The notes beneath the pieces are model-generated. The model was not told the DNA's origin. It made no database searches and saw only the letters and a program-made list of their open reading frames with translations. A stretch of DNA of 64,000 nt from an uncultured Pseudomonadota bacterium (GTDB lineage: Bacteria > Myxococcota_A > UBA796 > JAFGLY01), in the NCBI GenBank assembly GCA_937912125.1, contig CALDOK010000002.1, positions 1 to 64,000 of the forward strand, in the 5' to 3' direction. Numbering within the stretch: position 1 is the stretch's first letter; the number at the start of each line of letters is the position of its first letter. A program made the position numbers and the translations under genes. Positions 9,367-23,013 of the stretch are shown here, one piece after another.

Positions 9367-10137
9367 ATGAACCTGCTCCTGTCCAACGACGACGGCATCT
9401 CGGCTCCTGGCCTCGCGGCCCTCGAACACGGCCTCGGCCCGCAGGGGACCTGCTGGGTCATCGCGCCGGCTGGGGAGTACAGCGCCGGCAGCCACGCCCT
9501 GAGCTTGCACCGCCCCCTGCGGGTCACGCCCGCCGGCGAGCGCCGCTTCGCGGTGGACGGCTCTCCCGCCGACTGCATCTACCTTGGGCTGGCGCACTTC
9601 GTGCCCGAGAGGCCCGCGGCGGTGGTCTGCGGCATCAACCGCGGCGCCAATGTCAGCCTGGACGTCTATTACTCGGGCACCGTCGCCGCGGCGCGCGAGG
9701 CCGCCATGTGGGGCGTCCCCGCGGTGTCGGTCAGCCTCTTCACCGACGGCGGTGGGGCCCAAGGGGAGCTGCACTGGGCCACCGCAGCCCACTTCGCCAG
9801 CCGGGTGGTGGGTGAGGTGCTGGCCCGCGGCATAGGCTTCGAGGGCTCGCTGAACCTCAACGTCCCCAACCTGCCCCTGGCGGAGGTCCGCGGCCTGCGA
9901 GTGGCTCGCCTGGGGCGGCGCCACTGGAGCCGCGTGGTGGACGCGCGGAGAGACATCAAGGGTCGGCCCTACTTCTGGATCGGCGGCCACCACCAGGGCT
10001 TCGACGACATTCCCGACAGCGATGGCCCCAACATCCAGCAGGGCTGGGCTACCCTGACCCCCCTGCGGCTGGACTGCACCGACGAGCCCATGCTCAGCGA
10101 GCTGGCCGCCTGGGATACCGTCTGCACGGAGCGATAG
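9367..10137 (+). CDS. surE: 5'/3'-nucleotidase SurE
   Basis: 256 residues, normal length. SurE is a divalent-metal nucleoside monophosphate phosphatase linked to stationary-phase survival. The metal site NDDG is at residues 7-10. The phosphate-binding loop region EYSAGSHALSL follows, then the VDGSPADC motif and the long signature CGINRGANVS...YYSGTVAAAREA. The end of the protein carries the usual less conserved dimerisation arm. GGAG nine bases before the ATG at 9367 fixes the start. The next gene begins four bases after the stop, so surE heads a short plus-strand operon with a COG2426 membrane protein and apt, giving a nucleotide-salvage flavour. Confidence 0.95.
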   Translation: MNLLLSNDDGISAPGLAALEHGLGPQGTCWVIAPAGEYSAGSHALSLHRPLRVTPAGERRFAVDGSPADCIYLGLAHFVPERPAAVVCGINRGANVSLDVYYSGTVAAAREAAMWGVPAVSVSLFTDGGGAQGELHWATAAHFASRVVGEVLARGIGFEGSLNLNVPNLPLAEVRGLRVARLGRRHWSRVVDARRDIKGRPYFWIGGHHQGFDDIPDSDGPNIQQGWATLTPLRLDCTDEPMLSELAAWDTVCTER

Positions 10138-10141
10138 AACC

Positions 10142-10645
10142 ATGGCAATGCACATCTTCTGGATGGTCCTGCTCACCTTCCTGCCTACGCTCGAGCTGCG
10201 CGCCTCGATCCCCTACGGCTACCTGATGCTCTCGCAGGACGGGCAGCTGCACTGGGCGGCTGTGGCCGCGCTGTGCATCGTGGCCAACTTCCTGTTGGCG
10301 CCGCTGGTCTGGTTCTTCGTCCACTACGTGATGGAGTTCTTCCTGCGCGTGCCCTTCATCAAGCGCATCTACGACTGGGCGGTCAAGCGCGCCCAGCGCA
10401 GGGTCGAGCCCTATGTGCGCAAGTACGGCACGGTGGGGCTGGCGCTGTTCATCGGAGTGCCCCTGCCAGGATCCGGCGTCTACACCGGCTGCCTGGGGGC
10501 CTACCTGCTCGGCTACCGCTTCCGCGACTACCTGTGGGCCTCCGCCCTGGGCGTGCTCATCGCTGGTGCCGTGGTCACCGCCCTGGTGGTCAGCGGCGCC
10601 GAAGCCTTCATCTTCTTCAAAGACCCGACGCATCTGCCCGGTTAG
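10142..10645 (+). CDS. COG2426 small membrane protein (putative small multidrug export family)
   Basis: 167 residues with about four to five membrane helices. The sequence fits the COG2426/PF06695 family: PTLELRASIPYG near the N-terminus, a basic amphipathic middle (KRIYDWAVKRAQRR), then KYGTVGLALFIGVPLPGSGVY and GCLGAYLLG. The family was named for multidrug export, but it is also distantly related to DedA/SNARE-associated membrane proteins; the real substrate is unknown. The ATG at 10142 lies four bases after the surE stop, implying translational coupling. Downstream, apt begins after 35 bases. Confidence 0.85.
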   Translation: MAMHIFWMVLLTFLPTLELRASIPYGYLMLSQDGQLHWAAVAALCIVANFLLAPLVWFFVHYVMEFFLRVPFIKRIYDWAVKRAQRRVEPYVRKYGTVGLALFIGVPLPGSGVYTGCLGAYLLGYRFRDYLWASALGVLIAGAVVTALVVSGAEAFIFFKDPTHLPG

Positions 10646-10680
10646 GCACTTCGTCCCAGCAAGACTCACAGGAGCGCAGC

Positions 10681-11208
10681 ATGTCCGATCTCCAGCAGCG
10701 GCTCGACGCCACCATCCGCGACATCCCCGACTTCCCCAAGCCTGGCATCCTGTTCAAGGACATCACCCCCGTGCTGTCCGACCCCGGCCTGCTCGGAGAT
10801 GTCATCGACTACCTGGCCGAGCTGTACCACGACAAAGACATCGACGCGGTGGTGGGCATGGAGTCCCGCGGCTTCATCTTCGGCACCCCGCTGGCGCTGT
10901 CCCTGGGGACGGCCTTCGTGCCGGCCCGCAAGCCAGGCAAGCTGCCCTACAAGAGCGTGGGCTACGAGTACGAGCTCGAGTACGGCACCAACCGCCTCGA
11001 GATGCATGTGGACGCCATCAAGCCCGGCCAGCGCGTGCTCGTGGTGGACGATCTGCTGGCCACCGGCGGCACCGCCGACGCTACCTGCAAGCTCATCCGG
11101 CAGCTGGGCGGCGAGGTTGTGGCCTGCTGCTTCGTGGTGGAGCTGGGCTTCCTCAACGGCCGCGAGAAGCTCGGCGACGTGCCCGTCGAGAGCGTGATCA
11201 TCTTTTAG
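10681..11208 (+). CDS. apt: Adenine phosphoribosyltransferase
   Basis: 175 residues, the usual size. It converts adenine and PRPP to AMP in purine salvage. Visible features: DIPDFPKPGILFKDITP at the N-terminus, the ESRGFIFG loop, RKPGKLPY, and the PRPP-binding motif VLVVDDLLATGGT at about residues 120-132. AGGAG ten bases before the ATG at 10681 sets the start, although the frame is open far upstream inside the previous gene's alternative frame. The stop overlaps the convergent coaE stop by four bases. Confidence 0.96.
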   Translation: MSDLQQRLDATIRDIPDFPKPGILFKDITPVLSDPGLLGDVIDYLAELYHDKDIDAVVGMESRGFIFGTPLALSLGTAFVPARKPGKLPYKSVGYEYELEYGTNRLEMHVDAIKPGQRVLVVDDLLATGGTADATCKLIRQLGGEVVACCFVVELGFLNGREKLGDVPVESVIIF

Positions 11209-11801
11209 CCGCCCAGGATGCGGGGCAGGGCGGCGATCACCGCCTGCTCCAGGTCCTCCCGGCTGCCGTCGTTGTGGATCACCAGATCGGCCAGCTGCTC
11301 CTTGCGGGCGGCTGGCAGCTGCGCGACCAGCCACGCCTGGGCTGCGTCCGGCTGCATGCCGCGATCGGCCACCAGCCGCTGCACCTGCAGCTCAGGGCTG
11401 CAGCTGACCACCACCAGCATGTCGTAGAGCCGCTCCTGGCCAGTCTCCACCAGCAGGGCCGCCTCGACCACCGCGGTGCCCACCCCCAGGCTGGCCTGCG
11501 CCTCCAGCCAGGCCTGGATGTGTGCGTAGATGGCAGGGTGGGTGAGACCGTCGAGGTCCAGGCGGGCGACGGGGTCCGCGCGGATGATGCCCCCCAGGGC
11601 CTCACGGTCCAGGCTCCCGTCGGCGGCCAGCACGCCGGCACCGAAGCGCTCGCAGATGGCGTCCAGCAGCGCGCAGCCGGGCTGCACAAGCTGGCGCGCT
11701 ACAGCGTCGGCGTCGATCACCGGCAGCCCGTTGCGCCGCAGCAGTCGAGCCACGGTGCTCTTGCCGGAGGCGATGTTGCCCGTGAGCCCAACGGAGCGCA
11801 T
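11205..11801 (-). CDS. coaE: Dephospho-CoA kinase
   Basis: 198 residues. It catalyses the last step of coenzyme A synthesis, ATP-dependent phosphorylation of the 3'-hydroxyl of dephospho-CoA. The Walker A motif GLTGNIASGKST opens the protein, followed by VIDADAVARQL and the LTHPAIYAHI segment near residues 100-110. VVVSCSPELQVQRLVADRG and the VIHNDGS element near the C-terminus complete the family pattern. The start at 11801 places Walker A at residue 6, as in other CoaE proteins; the frame extends upstream into unrelated sequence. It begins two bases after the preceding HEAT-like gene's stop and is the last gene of a three-gene minus-strand operon led by the FHA regulator. Confidence 0.95.
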   Translation of the reverse strand: MRSVGLTGNIASGKSTVARLLRRNGLPVIDADAVARQLVQPGCALLDAICERFGAGVLAADGSLDREALGGIIRADPVARLDLDGLTHPAIYAHIQAWLEAQASLGVGTAVVEAALLVETGQERLYDMLVVVSCSPELQVQRLVADRGMQPDAAQAWLVAQLPAARKEQLADLVIHNDGSREDLEQAVIAALPRILGG

Positions 11802-11803
11802 GG

Positions 11804-12295
11804 TCAGGGCGTCATGACCGCGACGGGCCCGATGGTCTCGAGGGCATCCAGGGCCTTGCGCTGCGCCCTGCGGTTGGCCTCGCTGCCAGGCTGGACCATG
11901 GCCTCGAGCTCCGGGATCGCGGGCTCGTAGGCCAGCTGGCCCAGGATCCATGCGCAGTGGTGGGCCACGTTGCGGCTGGCGAGCGCCTGGATGCAGGCGG
12001 GCGCCACCAGCAGCTCGAAGTCGTCCAGGGCGGCCAGGGCGTCGATCTGCCGCAGGGTGCCCTCGCGGCGCTCGGAGTCCGCCAGGGCCACACGGAGCCG
12101 CGAGCGCAGGGTGCGCGCCGCGTAGAGCCGGTCGCTCCGGTCCTGGCCGGTCAGATCATGGATGTAGCGCTCGTTGGAGGTGTCGATGGGGGCGTGGCTC
12201 TGTGCTTGCTGCATGCGGCTGCCCGACCCCAGCAACAGGGGCAGCAGCAGCGGGAGGAGCCAACCGCGGCCCAGGGGAGCTCTGCTACTGGGCAT
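11804..12295 (-). CDS. HEAT-like helical protein with signal or anchor sequence
   Basis: 163 residues. A basic start and a strong hydrophobic run (about 12-23, LLPLLLPLLLG) form a signal peptide or N-terminal anchor without a lipobox Cys. The rest is helical, with RLYAARTLRSRL and two pairs resembling HEAT repeats (FELLVAPACIQALASRNVA and AIPELEAMV...). No catalytic motif is evident. Its start overlaps the end of the upstream FHA/sigma54 regulator gene by 11 bases, and its stop is two bases from coaE, so the three genes are co-transcribed. Function unknown; a periplasmic protein-binding solenoid is the simplest reading. Confidence 0.7.
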   Translation of the reverse strand: MPSSRAPLGRGWLLPLLLPLLLGSGSRMQQAQSHAPIDTSNERYIHDLTGQDRSDRLYAARTLRSRLRVALADSERREGTLRQIDALAALDDFELLVAPACIQALASRNVAHHCAWILGQLAYEPAIPELEAMVQPGSEANRRAQRKALDALETIGPVAVMTP

Positions 12296-14063
12296 CGTCG
12301 AACTTCTCGATGTAGCGGAAGATGGTGCGAGGGTCGACGCCCAGGTCCCGTGCGGTCTGGGCCTTGTTCCAGTTGTTGACCTCGAGCACCTCGCGCACGT
12401 AGCCCATCTTGAACTCTTCCTCGGCCTCGGCCAGGGGCTTGATGTGCCGGCGATCGCCGTCGGCCAGGCCGAGATCGGTGGTGTTGAGCAGCGCCCGATC
12501 GCTCATGATGGCGGCGCGCTTGACCCTGCTCTCGAGCTGTCGCACATTGCCGGGCCAGTAGTAGCCCTTCATAGCCTTGATGCACTCGTTGGTGAAGCCT
12601 TGGGCCCTGGAGCTGTACTGCTCGGCGTACTTGTTGAGGAAGAACCGGGCCAGCAGCGGGATGTCGTCGCCCCGATCCCGCAGGGGAGGCAGGCTCACGG
12701 TGACTTCGTTGAGGCGGTAGAAGAGGTCTTCGCGGAAGCGGCCCGCCTTGATCTCGACCTCGATGTCGCGGTTGGTGGCGGCGATGACGCGGATGTCGAT
12801 GGGGCGGGGTTGGAGCTCGCCGACCCGTTCGATCTTGCGCTCCTGCAGCACCCGCAGGAGCTTGACCTGCAGGTTCATGGGCATCTCGCTGATCTCGTCC
12901 AGGAACAGCGTGCCGCCTGCGGCCGCCTCGAACTTGCCCATCTTGTCGGTGACCGCCCCGGTGAAGGAGCCCTTCTTGTGGCCGAACAGCTCGCTCTCGA
13001 GAAGATTCTCGGGGATGGCGCCGCAGTTGATGGACACGAAGGGCTTGCGGGTGCGCTCGGAGAGACGGTGCAGATCGAGGGCCACCAGCTCTTTTCCGGT
13101 GCCCGTCTCGCCCAACACCAGCACCGAGATGTCGGTGGGCGCCACCCGGCGCAGCACCTTGAACACGGCCTGGATGGGATCGCTCGAGCCGATCATCTCG
13201 CCCTGGCCGGACTTGCGCAGCTGCTGGCGCAGGTTGCGGTTGGTGGTCTTGAGCTCGTTGAGCATCAGGGCGGTGTGCACCAGCAGGGAGGCCTGGCTGG
13301 CGAAGACGTGGAGCAGGTCGAGGTCGCGCTTGGTGAACAGGTCGGTGACCTTGTCGTTGCCCAGGTAGAGACAGCCCAGCAGGTCGTCCCGGTAGAGCAT
13401 GGGGACGCACATGACCGAGGACAGGCGCAGGTCGACCACGGACTTGGCGTGGGCGAACTGGGCGTCGTGCATGGCGTCGCTGACGATCAGCGGCTTGCGG
13501 GTGTGGACCACGCGCTCGACGATGCTGTCGGAGATGCGCGCCACCGCGGTGGAGTCGTCTTCGACATTGTGGCTGGCGGCCAGGTTGCGCTGACCGTCCT
13601 GCATCAGGATCACGAAGCCCTTCTCGGCGCCGGTGAGGAGCACGACCGCCCGCAGCAGCTTGCGGAACAAGGCCTGCGGTGAGGTGTCGCGCATCAGCTC
13701 CTGGGAGAAGTCCACCAGCTGCTTGAGGGCGTCGATGGTGTCGGGCTGGTCTGCGGCGGCGTCGGGGGCGGGTTGGCCCTCCATGAGGGTGAGCTCGTAG
13801 CGCCCGAGCAGCGCGCGGTCGCCGTAGCCGAGATCTGTCTGGCGCGTGCGCTTGCCGTTGACGTACAGCTCGTTCGAGCGGTCCAGCACCGAGATGGAGT
13901 AGCCCTGGCCGCTCTTGATGAGGTTGGCATGCGTGGCGGCGACGGTGGGGTCGCTCAGGATCACGTCGTTGCCATCGCGGCGGCCGATGGAGTTGATGGG
14001 CTTGCGGAGGACGACCTCGTTGGAGGTGCCGTGCATGGTGTCGAGGATGCGCAGGTACGCCAT
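12285..14063 (-). CDS. FHA-GAF-AAA+ sigma54-dependent regulator
   Basis: 592 residues. An FHA domain (about 5-95: SIGRRDGNDVIL, THANL) suggests control by phosphothreonine binding. A GAF domain (about 125-280) probably senses a ligand or a partner. The AAA+ module (about 290-525) has Walker A GETGTGKE, the sigma54 contact loop as GSFTGA (the usual GAFTGA with Ala to Ser), Walker B TLFLDEI, and the arginine-finger region. A Fis-type helix-turn-helix closes the protein (NKAQTARDLGVDPRTIFRYI). It should activate sigma54 promoters on phosphorylation of a partner by a Ser/Thr kinase, a layout frequent in myxobacteria. The gene heads a cluster with the HEAT-like gene and coaE. Confidence 0.93.
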   Translation of the reverse strand: MAYLRILDTMHGTSNEVVLRKPINSIGRRDGNDVILSDPTVAATHANLIKSGQGYSISVLDRSNELYVNGKRTRQTDLGYGDRALLGRYELTLMEGQPAPDAAADQPDTIDALKQLVDFSQELMRDTSPQALFRKLLRAVVLLTGAEKGFVILMQDGQRNLAASHNVEDDSTAVARISDSIVERVVHTRKPLIVSDAMHDAQFAHAKSVVDLRLSSVMCVPMLYRDDLLGCLYLGNDKVTDLFTKRDLDLLHVFASQASLLVHTALMLNELKTTNRNLRQQLRKSGQGEMIGSSDPIQAVFKVLRRVAPTDISVLVLGETGTGKELVALDLHRLSERTRKPFVSINCGAIPENLLESELFGHKKGSFTGAVTDKMGKFEAAAGGTLFLDEISEMPMNLQVKLLRVLQERKIERVGELQPRPIDIRVIAATNRDIEVEIKAGRFREDLFYRLNEVTVSLPPLRDRGDDIPLLARFFLNKYAEQYSSRAQGFTNECIKAMKGYYWPGNVRQLESRVKRAAIMSDRALLNTTDLGLADGDRRHIKPLAEAEEEFKMGYVREVLEVNNWNKAQTARDLGVDPRTIFRYIEKFDDAQ

Positions 14064-14133
14064 GAACTCTCCGTTGACACAGCGATTCCTTGTATCCCGT
14101 TCACCCCCTGGCCGATGAGCCCGTTCCCGATCC

Positions 14134-14922
14134 CTAGAAGCTCAGCTCCCACCGCACCGAGCCTGGCCCGATCATCAGCTCGCTGGTGGTGTGCTCCGTT
14201 GCCCATGCATCGCGGGCCGCGCGCTGGTCGGCGCGCCAGCGCACCGAGGCCTCGACCGTGCCCGTGATCCAAAGGGCCGTGAAGGCTCCGCCCAGGGCCC
14301 AGTTCCAGCTCCGCATGGCCACCAGGCGGCTGTACTCGGGCTCCTCGGCCGCGCTGTTGATGTACAGGGGGATCCCGGTACCCAAGGTGCCAGCCAGTGT
14401 GCCCACCTGGCCCGCAGCCAGCAGGGCGAACCAGCCGAAGCGTCCCTGGCGGGCCTGGTGGATGCCGAACGGGGTGTAGCCCGTCCAGTGCATGGCGTGG
14501 AACTCGGGGGGCAGGGGGATGGGGTCGGGCAGCTGGGGTGGAGGATCGTCGGGACCCATGGCCAGGGTGGCGGCGCGGACCATTCCGAAGAAGTCCAGCA
14601 CGTCGGGGGGGTGCTCGTAGGGATCGAGCTGGTGCTCCCGGTCGGCCTCGAGGATGGCGCGGAAGGTGTCCCAGGCCTGAGAACGGTTGCCGTCGGCCAG
14701 CAGGATCTCGCCGAGGTAGACCCGGGCTTTGATCTTGAGCTCCAGATCCTCGATGGCGGGATCGTTGAGCAGGCTGATCAGCGTGGCGCGGGCCTGGGCG
14801 TGGTCACCAGAGCGGTAGAGGCGGATGGCGAAGGCCAGGCGCTCCTGCCCCATCACCGGCAGCTCCTGAGCCAGGAGCGCCGTGGGGTTGAAGATCAGTA
14901 GGAGTGCCGGGAGCCAGCGCAT
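14134..14922 (-). CDS. Exported TPR-containing protein with membrane-associated C-terminus
   Basis: 262 residues, function unknown. A signal peptide (MRWLPALLLIFNPTALLAQ) starts at 14922. Residues 20-95 form two or three TPR-like helical pairs (RLAFAIRLYRSGDHAQARATL, KARVYLGEILLADGNRSQAW). A Pro-rich link (PPPQLPDPIPLPPE) leads to two hydrophobic segments around 160-180 and 205-225. Proteins with this TPR plus two-helix plan are common as uncharacterised envelope proteins in Myxococcota; that is family impression, not a firm match. It lies 70 bases upstream of the FHA regulator in the same direction and could be in the same unit. Confidence 0.75.
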   Translation of the reverse strand: MRWLPALLLIFNPTALLAQELPVMGQERLAFAIRLYRSGDHAQARATLISLLNDPAIEDLELKIKARVYLGEILLADGNRSQAWDTFRAILEADREHQLDPYEHPPDVLDFFGMVRAATLAMGPDDPPPQLPDPIPLPPEFHAMHWTGYTPFGIHQARQGRFGWFALLAAGQVGTLAGTLGTGIPLYINSAAEEPEYSRLVAMRSWNWALGGAFTALWITGTVEASVRWRADQRAARDAWATEHTTSELMIGPGSVRWELSF

Positions 14923-15024
14923 GCCATCGGGAGGTTAGCCGCCATTCGGAACCCGGTCAATCGAGTGGAGAGTCGCGGGACGAGGGGGCCGCGCCGAGGA
15001 AATGGGAGGCGCGGTGAGCCCTCG

Positions 15025-17427
<2,403 letters not shown>

Positions 17428-17490
17428 GGTTCACTCCGCGGTGGAGGTGATGGCCTACTGCTGTGCGTGCAAGCGCTGGCCAAGGGTGGA

Positions 17491-17518
17491 GACATATCCC
17501 CGAGGTCATCTAAATCAA
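17491..17518 (-). promoter_or_regulatory. Promoter for lon
   Basis: On the minus strand TTGATT (17513-17518), a 16-base spacer, then TATGTC (17491-17496), 64 bases before the lon start. I see no clear heat-shock sigma motif here. Confidence 0.45.
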
Positions 17519-17574
17519 GAGGCAGAACGCGGCTGGTGTGATGCAACCGGGAGCCCACCGCGGTCCAGGCTGGC

Positions 17575-19554
17575 TTAGCGCCCATTTCCCGGAGTGTGTT
17601 CTCGCTGGCTGGGCTCATGCCCAGGGAGGCGTCCTTGGGCTTGGAGGAGCTCCTCGTAGCTGGGTGGCCCCTCGATCTCCCAGCTGCGCTCGGCCAGGCG
17701 CTCGGGGCTCGGGGCCAGGGCTGCGGGGCTCTGCGCGCCTCCCTGCAGGTCCCAGACCACCAGGGCGCCCTCGACGGCTGTGGGAGGACCCAGGGCCTCG
17801 CTGATGGCGTCGGTGGTGAGAAAGGGGAGCCGCTCGAGGGCGGCGGGATCGAGGGCGACCGAGCTGTCGCCCCGGGGCCCTCCGGGCAGGCGGTCGCGGT
17901 TCTCGGCTTCCACCAGATCCCGGTGCAAGACCACCCAGCGGAAGCCCTCGCCCTGAAGCTGCAGCAGGCCCCGCTGGGTGGCGGGGGGCTCGGCGCGCTC
18001 GGGGTCGATGGTGGCGCGACGCAGGAAGCGGATAAGGTCGATCTTTACCCTGGCCTCGAAGCCTTCGGGCCACAGCAGGCGGGCGTTCTCGCCCATACCG
18101 CCGAAGATGGGCTGGCCGTGGACGGTCTGCCAGATGATGGCCGGTTGGTTGATGCCGAAGGGCAGGTGGATCAGGGCGCCGCCCTGGTCCCCGATCCAGG
18201 TGAACACGGCCGGTGGCTTCACGTCTCGGGTGACGAAGGGCCAGCAGAGCTGGCGGTGCTGGCTGGTGAGGTTGGCGCTCAGGAGGAGCGCTGCCAGGAG
18301 CAAGGGACCCCAGGCCGCCAGCTGTCGGCGTGGTGACGCGGCCAGCCCGCGCATGAGGGGGACCAGGGCCGCACCGACCGTGGCGGACAGCACCAGGAAG
18401 ACCATCACCACCAGGCGGTAGGGGAACCACAGGCGGTCGAGGAAGGGGACGGTGTTGTACAGCAGCAGGTAGGGGTACCAGGGGGTGCTCTGACCCGGCC
18501 CGACAGGCAGGGCGGGCCCTATGGCCACCACCAGCAGCAGCGCCGCCGCGCCGAGCCAGCGCAGGCGGTCCGGCCCGCGCCAGGCCACCAGGGCGATGAC
18601 CGCCAGCCAGCTGACATGGCCCAGCATGGGGGCGCCCCAGCGCTCCATCATCCAGTAGCCGTGCAGCTGGGTGGCCACGTTGTTGTGCAGCGCCTGGGGT
18701 TGAGCGAAGAGCCCGCCCCCGCCGATGAGCCCAGGCACGGCCCCTGATCTGGCCTCGATGGCCATGCTCACCACGAAGGGCGAGACCAGCAGCAGGCAGA
18801 CCCCGGCCGCGGTGGCGTAGCGCGCCAGCAGCCGTGCGCGCAGGGGGCTGCGGGCCAGGGCCCAGGCACCAAGCCATGCCCAGAGCAGCAGCTGGAAGTA
18901 GCCCATGAACCAGTAGACCAGGGCCTGCAGGGCAGTGAGCGCGCCCGCAGCCAGGGCGTCGCGATGGCGAGGGGCGGGGCCCTCGAGGGCCAGGAGGCGG
19001 TCCAGGGCCAGGGGCAGGAACCAGAGGAAGGCCTGGGTGGGGCGGCCGGCGGTGATCTCGAAGAGGGAGAAGGAGCAGGCCTGCCACAGGCCCGTGGCAA
19101 CGAAGGCGGCCACGGTGGCCTGCCCGCCTCCCAGGGCCTGGCTCCACCAGGGGGTCTGGCTGGCCGAGCCGGCGAAGCGGGCGGCCAAGGGGCGGAAGCT
19201 CAGGGCGTTGCCCAGCAGGATCACCGCCACGAAGACGGGCTGGTAGCGGGGGAAGCGAAAGACCCACTGGAAGGGAGCCGAGAGGGCGGCATCCACGAAG
19301 TTGTTGCCCGTGTGGGCGAAGATGTCTTTGCCCAGCGGGTGGAAGAACAGGTCGGTGAAGCCGGGGTCGTGCAGGTGGGCGATGCAGTCCTGGATCCACC
19401 AGTAGAACCAGAGGGTCCCGTACAGGTCCACGCCGTCCCCCACCACGTGGCTGCCCCGCACCAGGGCAGGAGCCACGGCCACCACGGCCACGGCGGCATA
19501 GAAGCCCAGCTCGAGCCAGCGTGGAAGGGTGGGATCGCGGGAGGCTCGAGGCAT
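17575..19554 (-). CDS. Large polytopic membrane protein, GT-C/YfhO-like layout
   Basis: 659 residues with about 10-12 membrane helices through residue 430, then a soluble domain of about 200 residues. The first external loop after helix 1 carries VGDGVDLYGTLWFYWW with acidic residues, the place where GT-C glycosyltransferases hold their catalytic Asp. HPLGKDIFAHTGNN follows. The overall plan resembles uncharacterised YfhO/GT-C membrane proteins that transfer sugars from a lipid carrier. The C-terminal domain has FGGMGENARLLW and a beta-rich stretch. A glycosyltransferase role is inference. It stands alone, divergent from the ImuA-like gene with 59 bases between starts. Confidence 0.75.
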   Translation of the reverse strand: MPRASRDPTLPRWLELGFYAAVAVVAVAPALVRGSHVVGDGVDLYGTLWFYWWIQDCIAHLHDPGFTDLFFHPLGKDIFAHTGNNFVDAALSAPFQWVFRFPRYQPVFVAVILLGNALSFRPLAARFAGSASQTPWWSQALGGGQATVAAFVATGLWQACSFSLFEITAGRPTQAFLWFLPLALDRLLALEGPAPRHRDALAAGALTALQALVYWFMGYFQLLLWAWLGAWALARSPLRARLLARYATAAGVCLLLVSPFVVSMAIEARSGAVPGLIGGGGLFAQPQALHNNVATQLHGYWMMERWGAPMLGHVSWLAVIALVAWRGPDRLRWLGAAALLLVVAIGPALPVGPGQSTPWYPYLLLYNTVPFLDRLWFPYRLVVMVFLVLSATVGAALVPLMRGLAASPRRQLAAWGPLLLAALLLSANLTSQHRQLCWPFVTRDVKPPAVFTWIGDQGGALIHLPFGINQPAIIWQTVHGQPIFGGMGENARLLWPEGFEARVKIDLIRFLRRATIDPERAEPPATQRGLLQLQGEGFRWVVLHRDLVEAENRDRLPGGPRGDSSVALDPAALERLPFLTTDAISEALGPPTAVEGALVVWDLQGGAQSPAALAPSPERLAERSWEIEGPPSYEELLQAQGRLPGHEPSQREHTPGNGR

Positions 19555-19596
19555 GGGCTGAGCCTATCGGGCCGGGGCTTGCAAGAGAAGCGATTT

Positions 19597-19608
19597 GAAC
19601 ATATGTTC
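19597..19608 (+). promoter_or_regulatory. Palindromic operator GAACATATGTTC, LexA-like
   Basis: A perfect 12-base palindrome (GAAC-N4-GTTC) lies five bases before the start of the RecA/ImuA-like gene, overlapping its likely promoter. GAAC-N4-GTTC is the LexA (DinR) box form of Gram-positives. Several deltaproteobacterial LexA boxes differ, so the repressor identity is inference from the damage-response nature of the gene. Confidence 0.6.
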
Positions 19609-19613
19609 AGTAT

Positions 19614-20288
19614 ATGTCCACCAGCCGCGCCAACGCCCTCGCCGAGCTGCGCCGGACCCTGTCGTCCCAGGGGGCGCTGGTGGATCCCGCGCCTCCTGGA
19701 GGTGTGCCCACAGGCTTCGCGTCCCTCGACGCTACGGCTGGCTGGCCCGCTCCAGGGCTGGCCGAGCTGTGTGGGCTGCCAGGCTCTGGTCGCCTGGGGC
19801 TGCTCATGCCGCTGCTCGTCCGCAGCACGCGCGCGGGGCGCTGGGTGGCCATCATCGACGTGCTCGGACGCCTGCATCCACCTGGGCTGGCGGGCGTGGC
19901 CTGGTCGCGCCTGCTGGTGGTGCGCCCCGGGGCCGAGCGGGCCGTGTGGGCGGCCGAGCAGCTGGCGGCCTCGGGGGCTGCTCCGGTTGTGGCGCTGCTC
20001 GATCCCATGCCCGTGGGGCGTGCGGGCTATCGCCTGCTGCGCGCGGCCGAGCAGGGCAGCAGCACCGTGGTGGTCGTAGGCGAGCGCAGTGAGCAGTCGC
20101 TCCCCGCCAGCCTGCGCCTACAGGCCCTGGGGCAGAGCCCCGGCACCCTCCACGTCCGCGTGGTCCGGGCCCCCGGCCGCCACCTGCCGGGTCGGGAGCT
20201 CGAGCTGCCTGCTCCGGTGCCCTGGTCGCCTCAGTCGTCCAGCAGCGTATGCTCGATCAACGCCTGCAGGGCATCGCCGCGCTGTTGA
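19614..20288 (+). CDS. ImuA/RecA-superfamily protein with altered Walker A
   Basis: 224 residues. The fold order fits the ImuA (SulA-like, RecA-related) family that partners ImuB and DnaE2 in error-prone repair: ALAELRRTLSSQG, then PTGFASLDATAGWPAPGLAELCG, P-loop GLPGSGRLG, strand WVAIIDV, and VVALLDP. The Walker A Lys is Arg (GSGR), so ATP use is doubtful; that is also seen in some ImuA-type proteins. No imuB or dnaE2 lies next to it. No ribosome binding site is evident before the ATG, and translation may be close to leaderless. The last about 20 residues (Ser/Cys-rich) overlap the convergent radical SAM-CoaB gene by 58 bases and look non-conserved. Confidence 0.7.
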   Translation: MSTSRANALAELRRTLSSQGALVDPAPPGGVPTGFASLDATAGWPAPGLAELCGLPGSGRLGLLMPLLVRSTRAGRWVAIIDVLGRLHPPGLAGVAWSRLLVVRPGAERAVWAAEQLAASGAAPVVALLDPMPVGRAGYRLLRAAEQGSSTVVVVGERSEQSLPASLRLQALGQSPGTLHVRVVRAPGRHLPGRELELPAPVPWSPQSSSSVCSINACRASPRC

Positions 20289-21730
20289 TACCAGGCGTGG
20301 GTGCTGGCGGTGACCAGGGCGACGCGCTCGCCCAGTCGGCCCAGGACGTTGGCGAAGACCAGGTCGGAACCCGTGCGCTGGGCCTGCTCGCGGGCGATGG
20401 CCACCAAGGCCTGGTCGCCGGTGTCGGGGGCGGCGGCCTTGAAGCTCACCAGGACCAGATCCGGACCTCCCCAGGCGCGGACCTGATCGAGGATCTTGGG
20501 GGTGGGGCCAAGGGACAGCTCCCAGCTGGCCTTGCCGCTCGAGACCTTGCCAGCGCTGGCCCGGGGGGCGTAGTCCCCCACCGCGGCTGCATGCACGACG
20601 ATGCCCCGGGGATTGGCGCGCACCCAGCGCTCCATGCGCGCCATCAGATCGTCGGTGCTCTCGAACAGCTCGGTGGACTCGATGCCGGCAGCCGTGGCAC
20701 GCAGCTGGGCCTGAGGGCTGGCGAGCAGGTGTACGGCGTGGTCGGGCTGCAGGGCCTGGGCGAGGGCTACACCTGTGCCGCCGCTCGAGTTCGCGGTGAT
20801 GCAGCGCATGCTGTCGATGGGGTTGCGGGTGGCCCCTGCGGTGACCAGCACGGGTCGCCGCCCCCAGCGGCCCGGGTGTACCGAGGCGGCCAGGCCGTGA
20901 CCGCGCAGCTGGGCGGCGATGGCCTCGAGCCGGGTGCGACCCAGCGCCCTGCAGGCGGGGTCTCGCGGCGCCCGCGCCACGGTGGTGACCTGGACCTCCC
21001 GGACTCGGCCTCCGCTCTGGACCACCTGCAGCAGGCGCTGCACCCAGGCGTGGATCTCGGCGGCGGTGGGCGCCTGGCCGTGGAGCTCGCTGAACAGGCT
21101 CTGGACGACCACCGGGCGCTGGCGGGACGCCAGCATCAGGTTGTCCAGGATGCGCTCGAGGGGGACCGTGCTGCAGTTGATGCGCTGGTAGGCCTGGGGT
21201 GTGCCGGCGTCGAGCTTGAACCACAGCTCTCCGCCCAGGGCGTGGAAGCGCGCCAGCGCCAGGCGCCCTGTAGGGGTGTGGAACCCCGAGCCGTTGCTCA
21301 GGAGCCGTAGCGGTACGCCCTCGAGCCGGTGCCGGGCTCGGGCCAGCCCCACCATGGCCACCGCGGCGGCCAGCTGTGGGCTGGTGCTGGGCTCACCGTC
21401 GCCGGCGAAGGCGATGTCTGCGACCCGGCGCAGCTCGTCGCGGACGGTGTCGAAGGGTGGGTGCTGCCACAGCTTGCCGGACCCCACCAGCCCCAGCAGC
21501 GCCTCGAGCTCGGAACCCAACCGGTCCAGCAGGACTGGCACGGCCTGCGGGGGGGCGCTGCGCTCCACCTGGCAGTAGCGACACAGGAAGCTGCAGTCGC
21601 GGCCCGGGTTGAGGTTGAGCCCGATGGAGAGGCCCTGGGCCCTGCGGGACACCACCGCGTAGACATAGCGATTCTGCCCGAGTTCACGCCGGTGATCGCG
21701 GAAGTCCAGCACGCGGGCTTTGGTGGTCAT
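20231..21730 (-). CDS. Fusion of radical SAM domain with CoaB-like (phosphopantothenoylcysteine synthetase) domain
   Basis: 499 residues. Residues 1-290 are a radical SAM enzyme: GLNLNPGRDCSFLCRYCQVE gives the CX3CX2C cluster (Cys46, Cys50, Cys53). FAGDGEPSTSPQL is the glycine-rich SAM-binding element seen in COG0731/TYW1-like proteins. Residues 293-499 match the CoaB/DFP domain: VLVTAGATRNPIDSMRCIT, NSSGGTG, AAAVGDYAPRAS, LGPTPKILDQV, VLVSFKAAA and DLVFANVLG. CoaB makes the amide between CTP-activated phosphopantothenate and cysteine. The usual CoaB partner, CoaC decarboxylase, is absent and replaced by the radical SAM part. The ORF runs without interruption, so this is not an assembly join of two frames. 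It is the third gene after two small lipoproteins. Substrate is unknown. Confidence 0.85.
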   Translation of the reverse strand: MTTKARVLDFRDHRRELGQNRYVYAVVSRRAQGLSIGLNLNPGRDCSFLCRYCQVERSAPPQAVPVLLDRLGSELEALLGLVGSGKLWQHPPFDTVRDELRRVADIAFAGDGEPSTSPQLAAAVAMVGLARARHRLEGVPLRLLSNGSGFHTPTGRLALARFHALGGELWFKLDAGTPQAYQRINCSTVPLERILDNLMLASRQRPVVVQSLFSELHGQAPTAAEIHAWVQRLLQVVQSGGRVREVQVTTVARAPRDPACRALGRTRLEAIAAQLRGHGLAASVHPGRWGRRPVLVTAGATRNPIDSMRCITANSSGGTGVALAQALQPDHAVHLLASPQAQLRATAAGIESTELFESTDDLMARMERWVRANPRGIVVHAAAVGDYAPRASAGKVSSGKASWELSLGPTPKILDQVRAWGGPDLVLVSFKAAAPDTGDQALVAIAREQAQRTGSDLVFANVLGRLGERVALVTASTHAWYQQRGDALQALIEHTLLDD

Positions 21731-21756
21731 GGCGGGAGGGGCGGGTGATCCCGCCG

Positions 21757-22095
21757 CTACTCTTCGCCTGCAGGCGGCTCGGTCACAGCCTCGCTGCCCG
21801 CCTCGCTGCCCGCCTCTAGGGCGGTGGCGTAGCGTTGCGAAGCCTGGGGATCGGAGGCGATGGCCACCAGCATGGTCTCCCAGCCCTCGCTGGTGAGGTC
21901 GTGGGCCTGGAGTACGGCGCTGTGCTGCTCAGGGCGCTGCTGCAGCTCACCGGCCACCACGATGGCCAGATCCACGTCCACCGCCTCCACCACGCTCTGG
22001 CTGAACGCCATCACGGGCTCGGGAGGTGGGCTTGGTTGCTCGGGGGGCACGGGCGAGCCGCATCCCCCGAGGAGCACGATCAGGAGGCCGAGCAT
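21757..22095 (-). CDS. Small lipoprotein
   Basis: 112 residues from the ATG at 22095. MLGLLIVLLGGC is a lipoprotein signal with lipobox LLGGC, so the mature protein is acylated at Cys12. A Pro/Glu-rich linker (SPVPPEQPSPPPEP) precedes a small folded part of about 85 residues (VVEAVDVDLAIVVAGELQQRP, WETMLVAIASDPQASQRYA) and an acidic, repetitive tail (EAGSEAGSEAV). The frame is open far upstream but lacks any protein-like sequence there, so the internal start is preferred. It begins 13 bases after the previous lipoprotein gene's stop, and the radical SAM-CoaB gene starts 26 bases after its own. Function unknown. Confidence 0.7.
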   Translation of the reverse strand: MLGLLIVLLGGCGSPVPPEQPSPPPEPVMAFSQSVVEAVDVDLAIVVAGELQQRPEQHSAVLQAHDLTSEGWETMLVAIASDPQASQRYATALEAGSEAGSEAVTEPPAGEE

Positions 22096-22108
22096 CACGA
22101 CCTTCGGA

Positions 22109-22498
22109 CTACTTGCTGGACTTCTTCGAGGAGCTTCCGCCCGAGGAGCTCTTGCCACCCGAGGAGCTCTTGCCGCCCGAAGAGCTCTTGCCGCCCGAGG
22201 AACTGCCACCCGAGCTCCGGCCGCTGCTGGTGGAGCCGCTGGTGCGGACCACCGGGGTGGTGGTCGTCGGGGTGGTGGTGGTGGGCTTGTCTTCGACCTC
22301 TTCCTCGACGTCAGCTGCGTTGGCCTGCTGGTCGTCGGGCACGGGGGCGGTGACGGGGGGAGGAGGGGCCACGGGGGGGGGAGGAGGAGGCTCGGTGGGG
22401 ACGGCCTGAACCTCGACAGCTTCGTCAGCGTCGCCGCCGCCACAAGCGAGTGCGAAGCCGAGCAGCAGGGAGAACGCGATGAGGAGACGGAGTCTCAT
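22109..22498 (-). CDS. Low-complexity lipoprotein with Ser/Gly/Lys repeat tail
   Basis: 129 residues from the ATG at 22498, with AGGAG nine bases upstream. Signal and lipobox are MRLRLLIAFSLLLGFALAC. The mature chain starts acidic (GGGDADEAVEVQ), continues as Pro-rich (PPPPPPVAPPPP) and Thr-rich segments, and ends in SSGGK repeats. The repeats are encoded by 18-base units at about 22139-22202. No folded domain is visible. Such basic, flexible tails bind anionic surfaces such as peptidoglycan, polysaccharide or DNA; this is inference. A run of nine G at about 22373-22381 encodes part of the proline stretch. Confidence 0.7.
   Translation of the reverse strand: MRLRLLIAFSLLLGFALACGGGDADEAVEVQAVPTEPPPPPPVAPPPPVTAPVPDDQQANAADVEEEVEDKPTTTTPTTTTPVVRTSGSTSSGRSSGGSSSGGKSSSGGKSSSGGKSSSGGSSSKKSSK
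22139..22202. repeat. 18-base tandem repeats encoding the SSGGK tail
   Basis: About three and a half copies of an 18-base unit (cttgccgcccgaggagct with few changes) inside the lipoprotein gene; each adds six residues. Copy number could vary by slippage. Confidence 0.7.
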
Positions 22499-22602
22499 GG
22501 GACACTCCTGGTGTGGGAGAGAGAGGGGTTTCAGAGCCGTGGGATTCGACACCTAGGCGATAATCCACTGTTCGAACCACGGCCACGCATGCACGCTGTG
22601 TA

Positions 22603-23013
22603 TCAGCCGAGATCGACCACCCTGCCGAAGCCGGGGATCTCGTCGCGAAGCAGAGCCTCGACACCCATCTTCAGGGTCATGCCCGCGCCGGGACAGCCTC
22701 GGCAGGCGCCTTGAAGCCGCACGTGCACGTCGGCGCCGCGGATCTCCACCAGCTCGATGTCGCCGCCATCAGCGCGCAGGGCGGGTCGGACCTGTTGGTC
22801 GATCACCTGCTGCACGAGCGCCGCGTCGAGGCTGGGCGCCTCGATACTGGGCGCTTCGATACTGGGCGCTTCGATACTGGGCACGACGCCCTGTGCATCG
22901 GCGCCTGGGGGGCCGGCTGGGGGGCTCGGGCGCGGGATCGGCGGTGTGGTCGTGGGCTGGGGAGAGCGGCCCAGGAGCCGACGGAAGCCGGCGGAGAGCT
23001 TGTCGCGAATCAT
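22603..23013 (-). CDS. NifU C-terminal-domain (Nfu) iron-sulfur scaffold with repeat linker
   Basis: 136 residues. The C-terminal 75 residues are an Nfu domain that carries or delivers iron-sulfur clusters: VIDQQVRPALRADGGDIELVEI and the CXXC motif ACRGCPGAGMTLKMGVEALL. The N-terminal half is unusual: a basic helix (IRDKLSAGFRRLLGRS), a Pro-rich stretch and three PSIEA repeats from identical 15-base units at 22834-22878. It lacks the NifU N-terminal scaffold domain and the NfuA A-type domain, so it is a minimal Nfu. It lies upstream of the radical SAM gene in the same direction (105 bases from the first lipoprotein). A supply link to that cluster enzyme is possible but not shown. Confidence 0.88.
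   Translation of the reverse strand: MIRDKLSAGFRRLLGRSPQPTTTPPIPRPSPPAGPPGADAQGVVPSIEAPSIEAPSIEAPSLDAALVQQVIDQQVRPALRADGGDIELVEIRGADVHVRLQGACRGCPGAGMTLKMGVEALLRDEIPGFGRVVDLG
22834..22878. repeat. Three 15-base tandem repeats in the Nfu gene
   Basis: Three copies of gggcgcytcgatact in direct tandem, in frame, each encoding five residues of the linker (PSIEA on the minus strand). The first copy differs at one base. Confidence 0.85.

Follow-up and report, generated by a model that had tools for sequence, protein, structure and literature searches.

A single open reading frame in the genome of an uncultured bacterium encodes a radical SAM protein together with a CoaB (PPCS) domain of CoA synthesis. 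The gene is likely to have formed in this lineage alone, by the in-frame joining of two complete and once separate proteins, the sole CoaB of the organism and a radical SAM protein. It most likely arose as a one-off gene accident, rather than as a new kind of enzyme. The gene lies in the window (the whole stretch of 64,000 nucleotides analysed here) of G000, a draft genome of 9.27 Mb in 527 contigs that is 98.9% complete with 5.2% contamination and is the only genome available for its species. To the extent that this assembly can show, the fusion is genuine; its parts are as follows.

20231..21730 (stop codon included), minus strand: fusion gene for a radical SAM protein plus CoaB/DFP domain, 499 aa
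20864..21730, minus strand: radical SAM half, residues 1-289, full length against stand-alone relatives (PF04055; identity to the G005 protein)
20849..20869, minus strand: junction, residues 288-294 (R-W-G-R-R-P-V), placed from the ends and starts of relatives
20234..20863, minus strand: CoaB/DFP half, residues 290-499, the only PF04127 domain of the genome (Pfam; 61% identity to the sister-genus coaB)

The frame runs from an ATG at position 21730 down to 20231 and specifies 499 residues. The interval is exactly that of the original prediction, with the gene on the minus strand; read on the plus strand, the same interval is broken by a stop. Pfam searches identified a Radical_SAM domain (PF04055) at residues 41-206 (E 4.9e-7, 30.5 bits for a cut-off of 29.5) and a DFP domain (PF04127) at residues 292-466 (E 3.1e-29, 102.5 bits for a gathering cut-off of 22). 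Alignment with single-domain relatives covered residues 2-288 for the stand-alone radical SAM gene of G005 (54% identity, E 7.7e-89) and residues 286-498 for coaB of the sister genus, represented by G001 (61% identity, E 2.4e-70), indicating that each half is of full length, with the join placed to about 3 residues. The CX3CX2C radical SAM half and the complete CoaB half that had been proposed were thus both borne out. The GC content at codon positions 1/2/3 was 0.76/0.51/0.91 in the radical SAM half and 0.73/0.53/0.88 in the CoaB half, the same coding signature. The architecture appears to be undescribed, as originally suggested: it was absent from the libraries and the relatives, PHROGs returned no match, and a limited, incomplete search of the open literature found no paper joining radical SAM with PPCS or COG0731 with radical SAM.

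At the join, neither the radical SAM stop codon nor the ATG of the sister CoaB remains. The closest radical SAM relatives end in ...YPGR(AES)*, about three residues after YPGR, and the CoaB of G001 starts with MSRPVLVTAG where the fusion reads ...HPGRWGRRPVLVTAG. The codon of Trp289 (TGG), one base away from TGA, sits where the relatives' radical SAM proteins end. In frame 5 codons further on, behind GGGGGCGG, there is a GTG codon (Val294, 20849-20851) that is a possible internal start. These two features, in a gene known from a single draft genome, could mean that two proteins are made after all, either from the internal GTG or because a TGA was read as TGG through an assembly or sequencing error. 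We regard this as unlikely, because the sister's ATG start has been lost as well as the stop, the frame runs through without a break and is coding on either side of the join, and conserved gene order on both sides of the fusion rules out a crude contig chimera.

The gene order was compared between positions 9367-23013 of the window and loci L038 and L153, G001 being the only other genome of the family. The block surE-apt-coaE-sigma54-type regulator-lon-membrane gene-recA-like-coaB-nfu was common to G000 and G001, with two genes lying between coaE and lon. Since this synteny continues on both sides of the fusion, a chimeric contig is unlikely. Two members of the block bear directly on the fusion.

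11205..11951, minus strand: coaE (dephospho-CoA kinase), the last CoA pathway step, in the same syntenic block as the fusion
22603..23013, minus strand: Nfu-type gene (NifU C-terminal domain; PF01106, E 2e-26), an old neighbour of coaB

In G001, coaB is unfused and the radical SAM part is absent at that locus; G001 also has no close copy of the radical SAM gene. The radical SAM gene therefore arrived at an old coaB locus. It would have come to lie directly upstream of coaB, after which it would have lost its stop codon and coaB its own ATG. The nfu gene is real, upstream of the fusion and in the same direction, as had been pointed out. The hint drawn from it fails, as nfu also adjoins the G001 coaB, which has no radical SAM part. 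It predates the fusion, provides no evidence for the function of the radical SAM half, and was excluded as a partner of that half. The recA-like gene, a small RecA-like/ImuA-like protein on the plus strand at positions 19614-20288 of the window, lies opposite the 3' end of the fusion gene. Its Pfam RecA match reached only E 0.08, and, with the boundaries given in the ORF list, it shares 58 bases at its 3' end with the fusion gene.

Examination of the CoA pathway indicated that the CoaB half has a housekeeping role. The fusion carries the only DFP domain in a genome that is 98.9% complete, and a search for a separate or second, ordinary coaBC elsewhere in G000 found none. A stand-alone CoaC of about 180 aa is encoded on contig C444, a type III pantothenate kinase (CoaX) on contig C492, and coaE about 9 kb from the CoaB sequence on one strand. 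The CoaB half is the sole PPCS candidate in an organism that has other steps of the pathway. Because it is the only DFP domain and CoaC, CoaE and CoaX are encoded separately, we infer that it almost certainly serves as the housekeeping phosphopantothenoylcysteine synthetase, which here, as in other members of the order, is separate from CoaC. This sole-copy status argues against a specialised enzyme making a modified pantetheine, an idea raised in the original prediction that found no support. The same prediction had placed the radical SAM domain where CoaC would normally sit. This holds as geometry; the order encodes CoaB and CoaC apart, however, the CoaB of relatives has no N-terminal partner, and the organism's own CoaC is on another contig.

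Three positions of the CoaB active site deserve attention.

20546..20548, minus strand: Lys395, aligned with E. coli CoaB Lys289 and invariant in the clade (alignment A2)
20792..20794, minus strand: Ala313, at the position of Asn210 in E. coli CoaB (Asp in the 1u7u chain), from the alignment
20822..20824, minus strand: Asn303, where ordinary CoaB has the Glu of its T-R-E-P motif, from the alignment

Lys289 is the catalytic lysine of E. coli CoaB, and the role of Lys395, its equivalent in the fusion, would follow from this. The 1u7u chain is the N210D protein of E. coli CoaB, an enzyme in which Asn210 also has a role; the fusion has no asparagine at this position, with Ala313 instead. The combination of Ala at the Asn210 position and Asn for the T-R-E-P Glu was common to all 20 stand-alone CoaB sequences aligned from the order (among them L038, L041, L043, L045-L047, L049-L051, L053, L055, L056, L070-L076), which are the only synthetases of their genomes. 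CoaB proteins fused to Nudix domains and the outgroup CoaBC keep Glu and Asn at the two sites. The double replacement therefore characterises the clade and does not indicate that the fusion is decaying. In a leave-one-out comparison, 0/37 near-invariant clade sites were changed in the CoaB half, indicating that it is still under ordinary constraint, and it grouped with G001 in the tree (support 0.95). As a guess, the two asparagines might directly swap roles, Asn303 standing in for Asn210. Structure predictions for two sequences reached a mean pLDDT of only 49.

The radical SAM half retains its cluster cysteines and the GDGEP and KLDAGT motifs.

21572..21595, minus strand: CX3CX2C cluster motif, C46-C50-C53, invariant in alignment A1
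21389..21403, minus strand: GDGEP motif, residues 110-114, GGE-like and predicted to bind SAM, invariant in alignment A1

The CX3CX2C motif and the Pfam score, just above the cut-off, place it in the radical SAM superfamily, and it presumably resembles the TYW1/wyosine-type radical SAM proteins (COG0731-like). A profile search against solved structures yielded no solved relative of the family at E 0.01. From its motifs, it probably still binds a [4Fe-4S] cluster and SAM. Leave-one-out comparison identified changes at 7/65 near-invariant sites, where relatives had at most 1/59. The mean radical SAM/CoaB distance ratio was 1.07 in G000 and 0.70-0.92 elsewhere (12 genomes), and the half formed the longest branch with no firm place in the tree (support 0.52). 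Our reading of these sequences is that this half is evolving faster, through relaxed or altered function; the changed sites and long branch may mean an altered or fading function and not an unchanged passenger. A variant of the fusion reading would go further and make this half a decaying relict or structural passenger on an essential gene, its activity lost. The divergence and the lack of a close copy in the sister genus agree with such decay, but the retained motifs and a frame kept open across 870 bases with ordinary codon use make it improbable.

The distribution of the two halves in relatives was in agreement with an isolated event. No second protein matching both halves was found in overlapping sets of genomes from the order (58), the class (71) and the phylum (377), so that looking for the two-domain arrangement elsewhere, as had been proposed, produced no other copy. 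In a scan of genome contigs for other copies of the fusion, the sole match was a radical SAM relative that stands alone. In most families of the order, a stand-alone radical SAM gene and a stand-alone CoaB lie on different contigs, the former about 45-54% identical over residues 5-288 and the latter 45-61% identical to the corresponding halves. CoaB and CoaC are encoded apart in this order, and the outer families f7-f9 have an ordinary CoaBC. Several genomes of family f3 have the same CoaB without the radical SAM gene, indicating that the association is not strict; in G058 and G026 the radical SAM gene occurs alongside another kind of CoaB or CoaBC. Since the two halves are apart and unlinked in every other genome that was checked, and do not strictly co-occur, the fusion is best read as two independent domains.

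A possible link was seen in f40, another family of the phylum. In the genera of G179 (loci L081/L092/L122) and G253 (L082/L091/L121), the gene next to a coaB-coaC pair, in divergent orientation, encodes a radical SAM protein from a related, distinct subfamily. This adjacency lends weak support to a functional link between radical SAM proteins and CoaB. The halves might form a functional pair, in which the radical SAM half either modifies an intermediate of the CoA pathway or regulates CoA synthesis as a sensor of SAM or oxygen, and the fusion channels or couples the two activities. Both active sites are largely intact, and a change of role might cause the divergence of the radical SAM half at conserved sites. 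However, a third f40 genus lacks the adjacency, and elsewhere in the class the genes of this subfamily lie away from coaB. Other relatives lack fusion or linkage, co-occurrence is inconsistent, and the CoaB half must serve the housekeeping pathway. We therefore consider a functional pair very improbable. The adjacency was also rejected as a general rule, being found in only two genera of one other family. Equally improbable is a working bifunctional enzyme in which the radical SAM domain acts on or controls a CoA intermediate and the clade's synthetase has a re-wired site, with the Asn of the T-R-N-P loop replacing Asn210.

Comparison with known systems placed the CoaB half closest to the monofunctional, streptococcal-type CoaB. 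It shares with these proteins the DFP fold as judged by sequence, the T-A-G-x-T...D...R and V-x-D-Y motifs, Lys395, the FK motif and the absence of an attached CoaC; it differs in the two replaced residues and in the N-terminal radical SAM half. Among solved structures, PDB 2gk4 (Streptococcus-type) was closest to the DFP half, followed by CoaB domains from mycobacteria and E. coli. The fusion scored far below the cut-offs of the NCBIfam equivalogs PRK06732 (81.6 vs 265 bits) and TIGR02114 (70.1 vs 217.2 bits). Its DFP half also aligns to positions 185-352 of the bifunctional CoaBC (Dfp) model TIGR00521, at 78.9 bits for a cut-off of 219.7. Unlike CoaBC, the fusion has no N-terminal flavoprotein CoaC half, CoaC being a separate gene. 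The stand-alone radical SAM proteins of the order (e.g. those of G005 and G015) are 47-54% identical to the other half over their whole length and have the same cysteine and GDGEP motifs, whereas they are unfused and the fused copy differs at 7 near-invariant residues.

A second kind of CoaB fusion was observed in the order (L058-L067, in G008, G026, G055, G022, G045, G060, G059, G053, G041 and G032). Here an ordinary-type CoaB is extended by about 300-350 residues, at the end of which lies a NUDIX domain (PF00293; E 1e-18 to 3e-19 for the three proteins examined). Like the radical SAM fusion, these proteins join CoaB and a domain foreign to it in a single reading frame; they differ in that the partner is C-terminal and the CoaB is of the ordinary Glu/Asn type.

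We infer the enzymatic activities, the nucleotide preference and the independence of the two domains of the one-off fusion, which together would give a simple scheme. The CoaB half would use a nucleotide to activate 4'-phosphopantothenate and then join the activated compound to cysteine, and the separately encoded CoaC would then decarboxylate the resulting compound. The radical SAM half would keep its [4Fe-4S] cluster and SAM and take no direct part in CoA synthesis. Counting against the one-off fusion are its occurrence in one draft genome, with many contigs and some contamination, the changed near-invariant sites of the radical SAM half and the hint from the f40 adjacency.

Should the two halves act together, this gene would give the first indication that radical chemistry or SAM sensing is connected with CoA synthesis. 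It would also serve as a Rosetta-stone clue to a radical SAM family that is widespread but without a known substrate. An isolated fusion is of less consequence. More open to testing is the replacement of Asn210 throughout the clade, in an organism's only synthetase, since it raises the question of which residues are needed for the second half-reaction.
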